Below are positions 18,972 to 22,643 of a stretch of 64,000 nt of DNA, piece by piece. How positions within the stretch are numbered: the stretch's first letter is position 1; the number at the start of each line of letters is the position of its first letter. The notes under the pieces are model-generated. The model was given only the letters and a program-made list of their open reading frames with translations, was not told where the DNA came from and ran no database searches. The translations under genes and the position numbers were made by a program. This DNA is from Qipengyuania sp. JC766 (GTDB taxonomy: Bacteria > Pseudomonadota > Alphaproteobacteria > Sphingomonadales > Sphingomonadaceae), in the NCBI RefSeq assembly GCF_040717445.1, contig NZ_JBFEFL010000001.1, forward strand, positions 2,304,001-2,368,000, given 5' to 3'.

Positions 18972-19027
18972 CCGGACGCCAATCTTTCCCCGCTATCCGC
19001 TAGACGGGATTTTTGGGGGAGATGCAG

Positions 19028-19648
19028 GTGCGCACGATGATCGGTCTGGCCCTGGCAGGCGCTGCCGGGGGTGGCATTTACATGACCGGCGCTGCCGGTT
19101 CGCAGGGCGAATATTACGAGCGGCCCCCGACGGAGATCGAGAACTCGCTCAAATCCATGCGCATGCCGGACGATTTCGGCGGTCCGACATCCGCCACGTC
19201 CGCGCTGCAGCGCCGGGCGTCGGAACCCGGCACCGTGAAGTGGGTGCTGATCGAAAACCGTTACCCGGTCGCGGAAATCCTCGCCACCGTCGCTCCGGAA
19301 GGATCCGGCGCGCGCGTGTCGGTCGATTTCGAACTGACCGACCAGATGCCGCAGGAGATGCGGGACAGCGAATTCGTCAACGACGTCGCCGAGATCGTGG
19401 TTCTCGAGCAGATCGATGCCACGATCGAGCAGCGCGAATTCGATGCCCGCACGATCATGGCCAAGCTGGCCGGCAAGGTCTGGTCGGACCCAGCAACGCT
19501 CGAACGCTACAAGAAGTCGATCGAGGATCTCGAGAATGCGGAGATGAGCCCTGCTGCCAAGGAGCGCCTGCTTCGCGAGCACGACTTCTACGCTGACGAG
19601 GCGACCGGTAGTTCGTCGGAATGGGGCGAGCATACGTCCTTCGAATAG
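19028..19648 (+). CDS. Hypothetical exported protein
   Basis: About 206 residues with a short glycine/alanine-rich hydrophobic N-terminus (MIGLALAGAAGGGIYMTG) and a charged soluble region of alternating strands and helices (VKWVLIENRYPVAEILATVA, FVNDVAEIVVLEQIDATIEQ). No family recognised. Several starts are possible: the GTG at 19028 sits six bases after GGGGGAG and is preferred over ATG 19022 (too close) or ATG 19037. It stands alone between phoD and the thrS leader. Confidence 0.65.
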   Translation: MRTMIGLALAGAAGGGIYMTGAAGSQGEYYERPPTEIENSLKSMRMPDDFGGPTSATSALQRRASEPGTVKWVLIENRYPVAEILATVAPEGSGARVSVDFELTDQMPQEMRDSEFVNDVAEIVVLEQIDATIEQREFDARTIMAKLAGKVWSDPATLERYKKSIEDLENAEMSPAAKERLLREHDFYADEATGSSSEWGEHTSFE

Positions 19649-19659
19649 GCGCTTCGTTC

Positions 19660-19688
19660 TTGCGCGGGGCGTAGGCCGCCCCTAGCTT
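19660..19688 (+). promoter_or_regulatory. Candidate promoter of the thrS leader
   Basis: TTGCGC (19660-19665), a 17-bp spacer and TAGCTT (19683-19688) resemble an alphaproteobacterial sigma-70 promoter. Transcription would start about seven bases later, at or next to the A of the leader-peptide ATG (19696). That would explain why the leader peptide has no ribosome site. Confidence 0.4.
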
Positions 19689-19695
19689 GCGGGCC

Positions 19696-19764
19696 ATGGC
19701 GAACGGATTTCCCATCACGACTACGACCACCCCGGGCTCCCGGGGGCGGTCGGTCGCGGGCTGA
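19696..19764 (+). CDS. Threonine-rich leader peptide (attenuator) of thrS
   Basis: A 22-codon frame begins at ATG 19696 and stops at TGA 19762-19764. Residues 7-13 read ITTTTTP: five consecutive Thr codons (ACG ACT ACG ACC ACC, 19717-19731). It ends 131 bp before the start codon of threonyl-tRNA synthetase. A run of codons for the cognate amino acid in a short frame, followed by competing hairpins, is the hallmark of ribosome-mediated transcription attenuation. There is no ribosome site, and the inferred transcription start coincides with the ATG, so it may be translated leaderless, as reported for trpL of Sinorhizobium. Confidence 0.75.
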
Positions 19765-19800
19765 GGCCCGGCCCCGCCACCCGGCTTCGGGTGGCGCGGC
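19730..19800 (+). promoter_or_regulatory. Attenuator with mutually exclusive RNA hairpins (thrS leader)
   Basis: Four pairing regions can be read. Region 1 (19730-19735, CCCCGG), which begins inside the last Thr codon, pairs with region 2 (19740-19745, CCGGGG) around a GCTC loop. Region 2 (19742-19749, GGGGGCGG) can instead pair with region 3 (19774-19782, CCGCCACCC) through 8 bp with one bulged A. Region 3 can instead pair with region 4 (19788-19796) to form the terminator. Stalling on the Thr codons would hide region 1, free region 2 to hold region 3 and allow read-through. Fast translation would give 1:2 plus the terminator. Confidence 0.65.
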
Positions 19801-19804
19801 GTTT
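19771..19804 (+). terminator. Attenuator terminator hairpin in the thrS leader
   Basis: A 9-bp stem (19775-19783 with 19788-19796, loop GCTT) is extended by three more pairs (19771-19773 with 19798-19800) across a C-C mismatch. The tail is GTTTGC, only three T residues, so as an intrinsic terminator it is strong in stem but weak in U-tract. Confidence 0.55.
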
Positions 19805-19895
19805 GCTCCCGAAACCGGTTTCCCTTCCCACGCCGCATCTTGCGGGTATGCTCGGCATTCGCCAAAGCGCCCGCGACGAACGGACGGTGGACACA

Positions 19896-21893
19896 ATGAC
19901 GGAACTGCTCAAGATCAGCCTGCCCGACGGGTCGGTGCGCGAACTGGAACGGGGTGCGACCCCGGCCGATGTCGCTGCCGCGATCGGTCCCGGCCTTGCG
20001 AAAGCGGCGCTGGCGGCCCGCGTCGACGGCGAGCTGCGCGACATCAACCGCCCCTTCGAAGGGGATGCGCAGCTGGAGCTGGTGACCAGCAGGGATGTCG
20101 ATGAAGCGCTCGAACTGGCGCGGCACGACTATGCACACGTACTGGCCGAGGCGGTGCAGAACCTGTTCCCCGGAACGCAGATCACTTTCGGTCCGGCAAC
20201 CGATGACGGCTTCTATTACGACTTCGCACCCGCCCCCGATCGCGGTCCGTTCACCGACGACGACCTGCCGACAATCGAGGAGGAGATGCGTCGCATCATC
20301 GCCGCCGATACGCCGCTGGAGCGCGAGGTGTGGACTCGCACGCAGCTGATCCAGTGGTTCAAGGACCATGGCGAGACCTTCAAGGCCGAGTGGGCGGCCG
20401 AACTTCCCGAGGGCGAGGAACTGACGGTCTATCGCCAGGGGGAATGGCTGGACATGTGCCGCGGCCCGCACCTTGCCAGCACCGGCAAGCTGGACCCGCA
20501 GGCGTTCAAGCTGACGCGCGTGTCCGGCGCCTACTGGCGCGGCGACCAGAAGAACGCGATGCTGAGCCGCATCTACGGCACCGGCTGGCTCAACAAGAAG
20601 CAGCTGAACGAGCACCTCCACCGGATGGAGGAAGCCGCCAAGCGCGACCACCGCAAGCTGGGCCGCGAGATGGACCTGTTCCACCTGCAGGAAGAAGCGC
20701 ATGGCAGCGTGTTCTGGCATCCGCAGGGCTACAAGATCTGGCGCCAGCTGGAAGCCTATATGCGCCGCAAGATGGACGGCGCGGGCTATCGCGAGATCAA
20801 GACCCCGCAGGTGATGGACGCGCGCCAGTGGGAGCAATCCGGACACTGGGGCAAGTATCGCGAGAACATGTTCGTCATTCCCGACGAGGTGCCCAATACG
20901 GAGGACGAAGGCGAGCTGGTGTCCAAGGACGCCGACTGGATGGCGCTCAAGCCGATGAACTGCCCCGCGCACGTGCTGGTCTTCAAGCAGGGCATCACCT
21001 CCTATCGCGACCTGCCGATCCGGCTGGGCGAGATGGGCTGCTGCCACCGCAACGAACCGCACGGCGCGCTGCACGGGCTGATGCGCGTGCGCCAGTTCAC
21101 GCAGGACGACGCGCACATCTTCTGCACCGAGAAACAGGTGGTCGAGGAAGTGCGCGCCTTCATCGAACTGGCGGACAGCGTCTACAAGGATTTCGGCTTC
21201 AGCTACGCCATCAAGCTCGCGCTGCGGCCGGAACAGCGATTCGGCTCCGATGCGGACTGGGACAAGGCGGAACAGGAAATGCGCGACGCCGTGGCCGAGG
21301 CGGGCATGGCGAACGACGACTACGGCTGGGAAGAGCTGCCGGGCGAGGGGGCGTTCTACGCGCCGAAGCTCGAATGGCACCTGACCGACGCCATCGGGCG
21401 CACCTGGCAGGTCGGCACGATCCAGGGCGATCGCGTCCTGCCCGAACGGCTCGATGCGACCTATGTGGGCGAGGATGGCGAGAAGCACCGCCCGGTGATG
21501 CTCCACCGCGCGATCTTCGGTAGCTACGAACGGTTCATCGGCATCCTGATCGAACATTTCGCCGGTCGCCTGCCCGTCTGGCTCGCCCCGACGCAGGCGG
21601 TGGTCGCCACCATCGTCTCGGACGCGGACGACTATGCCAACGAAGCGCTGGCCAAGCTGCGCGCGGCCGGCATCCGTGCCGAAGCGGACCTTCGCAACGA
21701 GAAGATCAACTACAAGGTGCGCGAACACAGCCTCGCCAAGGTCCCGCAATTGCTGGTCGTCGGCAAGCGCGAGGCGGAGGAAGGCACCGTCGCGGTTCGC
21801 ACACTGGGCGAGAAGGAACAGCGCGTCTTGCCGCTGGACGAGGCCATCGCGGCCCTGCGCGAAGCGGGAACGCCGCCGGACCTTCGGGACTGA
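19896..21893 (+). CDS. thrS: Threonine--tRNA ligase
   Basis: A 665-residue class II synthetase that charges tRNA-Thr. Domains in order: TGS (1-65), the N2 editing domain that removes mis-charged serine ([17 protein letters not shown]), the catalytic core, and a C-terminal anticodon-binding domain. Core motifs include KPMNCPAHV, where the Cys (about 356) is a zinc ligand, [24 protein letters not shown] (motif 2 region) and [17 protein letters not shown] (motif 3). I chose the ATG at 19896 ([12 protein letters not shown]) with GGACGGTGG upstream; the open frame extends back to 19791 without coding support. It is preceded by the threonine attenuator and followed after 3 bp by a TauE/SafE gene. 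Confidence 0.97.
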
Positions 21894-21896
21894 CGC

Positions 21897-22643
21897 TTGG
21901 ACGTACTGGCCGGTTTCACCGCGTGGCAGCTGGCCGCGGCGCTCGGCACGGGTCTTGTCGCCTCCTTCATCCGCGGGCTGGCGGGGTTCGGGCTGGCGAT
22001 CATCCTCGTGCCGGTGCTGGCGCTCGCGCTGACCCCGGTCGAGGCGGTGCTGACCACCAATGTCGTCGCGATGCTGATCGGCGGGGTCGAACTGCCCCGG
22101 CTGCTGCGCGAGGCGGAGCGCAGCGTCTGGTTCATCATCGGGGCGGTCCTGCTGACCACCTTGCCCGGCCTCGTCCTGCTTGCGGCGACCCCGCCCGACA
22201 TCGCGCGCGTGCTGATCGCGCTGGTGGCCCTGTCCGCCTTCTTCGCGGTCCTGTTTCCCGTGCGCGAGGCGACGCAGCCCGGGCCGCTCACCACCGGATT
22301 GACGGGGGCGGCCACCGGCATATTGACGGGATTTGCTGGCATGCCGGGGCCGCCGGTCGTCCCCTATTACGTGGGGCGCGCCATTCCGCGGCAAGTCGCG
22401 AAAAGCTCCATGCTGCTGATCTTCACCGTGGCGGCGGTCATCGGGATCGCCTCCGGCGTGGCGATCGGGGAAATGGAATGGCGGCTGGCCCTGCTGGGCG
22501 CGATGCTTTTGCCTATCGTGTTGTTCGGCACATGGCTGGGCCGCCGTGCCGACGGCTACATTTCGGACCGGGTCTGGCGGGGCTTCGTCGGGCTGGTCCT
22601 GGCCGCGGCGGCACTGGCCGCGATCGCCAAGCTGTTCGTCTAG
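21897..22643 (+). CDS. TauE/SafE family sulfite exporter-like membrane protein
   Basis: A 248-residue protein with about eight membrane segments and the family's repeated pattern (SFIRGLAGFGLAIILVP, then GILTGFAGMPGPPVVPYYVG in the second half). TauE/SafE proteins are proposed to export sulfite or sulfoacetate, or take up related anions; the substrate here is unknown. The start is a TTG three bases after the thrS stop, so it is probably read from the thrS transcript. That would place it under the same attenuator, although no link to threonine is obvious. Confidence 0.83.
   Translation: MDVLAGFTAWQLAAALGTGLVASFIRGLAGFGLAIILVPVLALALTPVEAVLTTNVVAMLIGGVELPRLLREAERSVWFIIGAVLLTTLPGLVLLAATPPDIARVLIALVALSAFFAVLFPVREATQPGPLTTGLTGAATGILTGFAGMPGPPVVPYYVGRAIPRQVAKSSMLLIFTVAAVIGIASGVAIGEMEWRLALLGAMLLPIVLFGTWLGRRADGYISDRVWRGFVGLVLAAAALAAIAKLFV

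Follow-up and report, generated by a model that had tools for sequence, protein, structure and literature searches.

Synthetase genes are best known under T-boxes in Firmicutes, with scattered mechanisms elsewhere. Two of these act on thrS itself, T-boxes through direct binding of tRNA and the E. coli operator through direct binding of ThrS; the locus described here has the same target gene, but its sensor would be a translated run of codons. A Thr-sensing leader peptide precedes thrABC in gammaproteobacteria, where it regulates biosynthesis; the sensing is alike, but the target is not the synthetase. The enterobacterial his attenuator, which serves a biosynthetic operon and uses His codons, consists of six segments that pair either as A:B, C:D and E:F or as B:C and D:E. 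Our locus may follow the same six-segment pairing logic, with the differences that its D:E and E:F helices (4:5 and 4b:5b below) cross rather than share bases and that its U-tract is weak.

The closest described system is thrL-thrS of Streptomyces lividans TK24, where a weak leader peptide has been proposed ahead of thrS (PMC8079986). In that report, thrL likewise is a Thr-containing leader before thrS and has a hairpin without U-rich sequence; it is leaderless, as ours probably is, but it contains two Thr codons and was seen by RNA-seq in one strain of another phylum, whereas leaders of the present type carry 4 to 13 Thr in 44 loci and have covarying helices. Leader-peptide attenuators are also described for trpS and leuS of Streptomyces, with gammaproteobacterial pheST named for comparison (PMC1262725), and His leaders for hisS paralogues of bacilli (PMC2965389). 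All place a synthetase under a run of its own codons with switching hairpins; they concern other amino acids and lineages, and the likeness is one of description. For Sinorhizobium meliloti trpL-trpE(G), the attenuator RNA begins at the leader ATG (PMC7298713); that system is alphaproteobacterial like ours and leaderless, as ours probably is, but it uses Trp codons and a biosynthetic gene.

A reading of our locus from its letters alone (the sequence-only reading) had taken it as possibly new. It is less novel than thought, because a thrS leader peptide had been proposed in S. lividans (PMC8079986); for alphaproteobacteria, no thrS leader-peptide attenuator was found in the portion of the open-access literature that was covered, and an earlier mention is possible.

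The threonine leader and its place before thrS

The window is the whole stretch of 64,000 nucleotides analysed here, from the 2.70-Mb genome of Qipengyuania sp. JC766. Its relevant features are as follows.

19660-19688, + strand: putative promoter P1, TTGCGC (19660-19665), 17 nt, TAGCTT (19683-19688); predicted start at the leader ATG or next to it
19696-19764, + strand: leader ORF of 22 codons, from the window sequence
19717-19731, + strand: run of Thr codons (putative sensor), ACG ACT ACG ACC ACC, from the window sequence
19730-19735, + strand: region 1, pairs with 19740-19745
19740-19749, + strand: region 2, pairs with region 1, or with region 3 (10 bp)
19774-19784, + strand: region 3, pairs with region 2 or region 4
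19783-19796, + strand: region 4, with CGGGTGGCG (19788-19796) pairing to region 3 and GGCTTCGGG (19783-19791) to region 5
19798-19803, + strand: region 4b, GGCGTT, pairs with region 5b
19808-19816, + strand: region 5, CCCGAAACC, pairs with region 4 with one C.A mismatch in the window
19830-19834, + strand: region 5b, ACGCC, pairs with region 4b; followed by a weak pyrimidine tract, GCATCTTG
19839-19867, + strand: putative second promoter P2, CTTGCG, 17 nt, CCAAAG; found by eye, downstream of the attenuator
19896-21893, + strand: thrS, threonyl-tRNA synthetase (NCBIfam TIGR00418 thrS, 636 bits, plus Pfam)

The 22-codon ORF with five consecutive Thr codons that had been claimed before thrS is indeed there, and 131 nt lie between its end and the thrS ATG at 19896. 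We consider it likely, at a probability of roughly 0.86, that this is a ribosome-mediated leader-peptide attenuator coupling thrS transcription to charged tRNA-Thr.

Relatives were sampled by taking the DNA upstream of thrS in two sets, 80 named contigs and 90 of the 98 family genomes having a ThrS match (G040, G024 and G052 were left out, as were the broken or partial ThrS matches in G007, G018, G025, G064 and G096). The family within this genome set includes Allopontixanthobacter and Sphingopyxis records. After dropping L009, which has 101 nt upstream, and the duplicates L118 (= L008) and L125 (= L022), we counted 167 upstream regions. A short ORF with at least five Thr in eight codons precedes thrS in 43 of these 167 relatives; the runner-up residue, Arg, reaches this density in 7 regions, and the shuffles of the set do so for Thr in 4 of 3,340 cases. 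For the window's own 330 nt upstream of thrS, 2 of 3,000 dinucleotide shuffles give five or more Thr in eight. A looser cut of four in eight codons finds Thr in 48 regions, Ala in 42 and Arg in 38, and is not Thr-specific by itself because Ala and Arg approach Thr. On the reverse strand of the 167 regions the count is 30 for Val, which is what ACC runs give when read in the opposite direction, and 8 for Ala. The segment 19690-19815 folds with z = -3.4 against shuffles. We conclude from these sequence comparisons that the Thr-leader layout of the window is not a product of chance.

Alignment A1 contains 44 of the 48 loci with at least four Thr in eight codons; we excluded L081, which is of another family and type, and the doubtful L100, L114 and L167. 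Within the Thr run, conservation by codon position in A1 is 94% at position 1, 93% at position 2 and 62% at position 3, a contrast that is inflated and partly built in, because the 44 loci had been chosen by Thr content. Subject to that inflation by selection, the synonymous variation of the run was counted in favour of a translated sensor. Codon usage differs as well when the 44 leaders are set against the thrS genes from 35 of the same loci: ACT makes up 21% of Thr codons in the leaders and 4% in the genes, ACC 53% and 47%, and ACG 20% and 44%. Leaders thus use ACT roughly five times as often as the genes do, and ACG roughly half as often. The bias suggests that codons read by tRNA-Thr(GGU), to which we presume the favoured codons belong, are apparently preferred in the leader. 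Peptide C-terminal ends such as RGRxVA recur among the leaders.

The distance from the best -10 element to the first in-frame start is 6 to 8 nt in 38 of the 44 loci (7 nt in the window) and, by the same script, 10 to 37 nt or none in the remaining 6. Because the start codon follows so closely in these 38, we infer that the leader mRNA is probably leaderless. The P1 match of the window, at 5.75, is the weakest of the 44 (mean 7.15), and 125 control regions average 5.96. Further downstream, a box of the form CTT.., 17 to 19 nt, CAT/CAA/TAA stands before thrS in loci with or without a leader, as judged by eye and without statistics; P2 is possibly an unattenuated source of basal thrS expression.

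A covariance model of the leader, R1, finds one strong match in its own genome (112.9 bits; the next scores 20.9). Across 296 genomes of Sphingomonadales, 93 match at E <=0.01 and 88 at 40 bits or more, and all 88 fall in the window's family. Every one of these 88 precedes thrS, two of them one gene away; the count combines 23 matches for which a ThrS start was found downstream in fetched loci with 65 for which the distance was computed. A ThrS start lies downstream of the match in all 29 foreign loci examined among the fetched ones. From the end of the model to thrS, the 65 loci show 24 to 88 nt in 63 cases and 574 to 575 nt in 2 (G059, G312). The weaker matches are mixed: G217 (28.7 bits) lies 585 nt upstream of thrS, those in G271, G180 and G133 are not beside thrS, and there are also a match in G071 and second matches in G231 and G341. 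When 16 further matches were read, all 16 had a leader with at least four Thr in eight codons, a model-dependent figure, as R1 itself includes the Thr run.

When 289 genomes from across the class were searched, R1 matched in 3, each of them a member of the window's family; the leader was not found in the sampled loci named Sphingobium (0 of 3) or Sphingopyxis (0 of 5), and most sampled Sphingomonas loci are without it. On a ThrS tree of 110 rows built by a quick method, the label 'leader present' needs 13 changes (set before L083 was known to carry the leader, and with L081 counted as without), which implies repeated losses or gains.

In four loci the attenuator would control a two-gene unit, since another gene intervenes. 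A small gene (MRYYIDTEFNGT...) lies between attenuator and thrS in L083, whose ThrS is the closest to the window's in the family sample (94% identical), and in L087; the same gene follows the attenuator in L348 and L349, where thrS comes 575 to 585 nt on. It has no Pfam match, and its resemblance to RNase AS (NF033638, E 0.0011) is weak and falls far below the cut-off.

Around the window's own locus, a 211-aa ORF (19013-19648) without a Pfam match at E 0.001 ends 47 nt before the leader ATG, and a TauE/SafE-type gene (Pfam PF01925, 21897-22643) lies directly downstream of thrS. A 979-aa open frame on the minus strand (19455-22394) runs antisense to leader and thrS and is most likely a by-product of high G+C. 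Rfam, T-box included, gave no match in the window at gathering and none up to E = 10 for 19600-19920, and the tRNA scan and the promoter and terminator scans gave no lead.

Pairing of the leader RNA

Regions 1 to 4 and the pairings 1:2, 2:3 and 3:4 were located by script where the sequence-only reading had placed them, and the mutually exclusive, correctly ordered arrangement with region 1 at the Thr codons is kept in aligned relatives. That reading had missed two further covarying helices, 4:5 and 4b:5b. The duplex energies in the window are -11.5 kcal/mol for 1:2, -20.1 for 2:3, -19.8 for 3:4, -14.7 for 4:5 and -13.4 for 4b:5b.

We compared each helix in A1 with versions in which the pairing had been slid. 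For 1:2, 81.1% of cells are paired (best slide 72.3%) and 11 are changed on both sides (12 at slide +1). Helix 2:3 is 87.0% paired (best slide 66.2%) with only 4 both-side cells (slides up to 9), and 93 of 500 shuffles reach its covariation score, so that it rests on complementarity and not on covariation; on sequences outside A1 it is 96.5% paired, nearly invariant and without covariation. Helix 3:4 is 81.3% paired, above its slid versions, with 16 both-side cells (slides up to 12). The two added helices do better: 4:5 (GGUUUCGGG with CCCGAAACC) has 82.5% of cells paired and 24 changed on both sides (slides at most 67.9% and 18), and 4b:5b (GGYGUY with RACRCC) 88.0% and 16 (slides at most 60.1% and 9). 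Helix 4:5 was also examined in 24 sequences that are not part of A1 (23 distinct), aligned with a model that leaves this helix out; there it is 96.7% paired, versus 74.5% for the best slide.

Exchanging partner arms between sequences worsened the pairing energy for all five helices, and 0 of 500 exchanges reached the real value, in tests that leave relatedness in and use helices drawn after A1 had been inspected. The gap is largest for 4:5, at -12.2 versus -9.5 in 41 loci of A1 (3 of the 44 were omitted), and it recurs in 22 more divergent loci of set A3 (-12.6 versus -9.3), six of which are also in A1; L028 and L134 were omitted, leaving 22 of 24. Helices 4:5 and 4b:5b cross without sharing bases and might coexist as a pseudoknot. 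Together they point to a his-like switch of six segments.

Aligned relatives thus keep the Thr run, the three stems proposed earlier and the place before thrS, so that the lack of conservation which the sequence-only reading had named as a refutation did not appear; with all 88 strong matches before thrS, these features support the proposed Thr attenuator. Among the compensatory changes looked for, those in 2:3 are weak. The comparison speaks for the Thr run, for the helices in their order and for the constant association with thrS. Ribosome stalling, the role of 4:5 as antiterminator (A:B/C:D/E:F versus B:C/D:E), the exact termination step and P2 are inferred.

The proposed mechanism would run as follows. 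Transcription would start at or beside the leader ATG, so that the ribosome would translate a leaderless mRNA. With ample Thr-tRNA it would run through, 1:2 and 3:4 would form with region 5 left free, and transcription would end at 4b:5b and the weak pyrimidine tract behind it, or through Rho. When Thr-tRNA is short, the ribosome would stall on the Thr codons and cover region 1, allowing the 10-bp helix 2:3 to form; region 4, so released, would pair with region 5, and RNA polymerase would go on into thrS. In other words, the off state would consist of 1:2, 3:4 and 4b:5b, and the on state of 2:3 and 4:5.

The median energies of the two states lie near each other, at -18.75 for 2:3 with 4:5 versus -16.5 for 3:4 with 4b:5b; state energies of single loci are unreliable because of misalignment. 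When all bases upstream of 19737 are masked and the transcript has not yet reached region 4, computation gives the 10-bp helix 2:3; once region 4 is present, the minimum-energy fold of the masked window RNA has 3:4, not 2:3. Since the masked fold returns to 3:4, antitermination would have to be kinetic or be held by 4:5.

The stop, and competing explanations

The sequence-only reading had called 3:4 a terminator, and this label is not supported. The 8 nt after 3:4 in the window are CGGCGTTT, with no U-tract; at least four T in the 8 nt after 3:4 occur in 0 of the 44 A1 loci, and a terminator scan of 19500-20000 found none. On these grounds we rejected 3:4 as a standard intrinsic terminator, and termination at this hairpin is unproven because it has no U-tract. 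After 5b, at least four T in 8 nt occur in 5 of 44 loci (39 of the 44 show the full 8 nt; background 3.5%). Because T tracts follow 5b in some loci and 3:4 in none, 4b:5b is the likelier terminator of the two on sequence grounds, with Rho a serious alternative.

Leader-peptide control could be real and yet depend for its outcome on Rho, acting on the free C-rich region 5 of the off state, or on translation, and not on an intrinsic terminator, with 4:5 and 4b:5b perhaps in a pseudoknot. We regard this as possible, though somewhat unlikely. It would account for the U-tract that is absent after 3:4 in all 44 loci and weak after 5b, for the conservation of 4:5 beyond the needs of a four-segment attenuator, and for 4b:5b (by eye) ending only a little way ahead of the following gene in L083, L087, L348 and L349. 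It fits less well with UCUUUUC, which follows 5b in some divergent loci (L043, L054, L056, L343, L344), though not in L341, L345 or L346, or with the hairpin plus U6 of a second alphaproteobacterial family described below. Masking of the ribosome-binding site would also have to act over a long distance, as the thrS start is 24 to 88 nt past the model end in 63 of 65 loci. A more detailed scheme, which we offer only tentatively and consider rather unlikely as a whole, is a six-segment leaderless Thr-tRNA sensor biased to ACC and ACU, whose crossing helices 4:5 and 4b:5b, possibly a pseudoknot, would open or hide a Rho entry site, with no canonical intrinsic terminator and a second, unregulated promoter downstream.

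Compatible with the attenuator is the idea of an additional role in trans for the terminated leader RNA or its peptide, like that described for Sinorhizobium rnTrpL/peTrpL in PMC7298713. In its favour, a leaderless leader would yield a small mRNA, and peptide ends such as RGRxVA recur, but the RGR codons sit in region 2, where RNA pairing alone explains them, and there is no known target; we judge such action improbable here.

Still less probable is that ThrS represses its own mRNA through a tRNA-like hairpin, as it does in E. coli, and that the upstream ORF is incidental. A TGTGCCAT-like motif with GC-rich inverted arms does recur about 32 to 67 nt before thrS, and its own arms pair at -11.95 versus -10.69 kcal/mol (sd 0.34) for swapped arms. 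The arm-to-arm pairs, however, number 8.3 versus 8.0 when swapped (sd 0.27), hardly above; where the leader is absent, the motif coincides by eye with what looks like a promoter box; and the Thr run is left unexplained. As a tRNA-like ThrS operator the TGTGCCAT hairpin was rejected, with swapped arms pairing almost equally and the element resembling a promoter box.

Coincidence in GC-rich DNA has next to no probability and is contradicted by conservation and covariation: hairpins abound in such DNA, long spurious ORFs overlap the same region, and Ala and Arg come close to Thr at the four-in-eight cut, but the Thr enrichment at the stricter cut (43/167 versus 4/3,340 in shuffles), the model matches, the thrS linkage, 4:5 outside A1 and the arm swaps (0/500) all oppose it.

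Threonine leaders elsewhere in the class

We examined 89 thrS upstream regions from the 136 class genomes that had a match besides our own; one is in the window's family and one comprises only 161 nt. At least four Thr in eight codons occur in 3 of the 89 (L224, L229, L221). As a count across the class this is no excess, because Ala reaches 15 and Arg 14 at four in eight; at five in eight, Thr and Arg each stand at 3.

The family of L224 is a different matter when its own members are compared, with a Thr leader in 8 of 9 usable thrS loci. The leader loci include L224, L297 and L299-L304; L298 has none, and L296 has too little sequence. A hairpin CCCUCCC..GGAGGG followed by UUUUUU is present in 7 of the 8 leaders, and L081, from a bin named Rhodospirillaceae, has the same leader as L299. 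Judged from sequence, the case for Thr codons attenuating thrS transcription is nowhere clearer than in this family.

L229 and L221 have isolated Thr-rich short ORFs before thrS and belong to two other families. The family of L229 shows one convincing leader in 30 loci, so that the leader of L229 may be chance.

Since 88 of the 296 sampled Sphingomonadales genomes carry the leader, and a second alphaproteobacterial family has a comparable arrangement with a standard terminator, leader peptides through which charged tRNA feeds back on the matching synthetase may be commoner than catalogued. The locus offers a proposed attenuator that is probably leaderless and without a clear U-tract, together with a covariance model for annotation.
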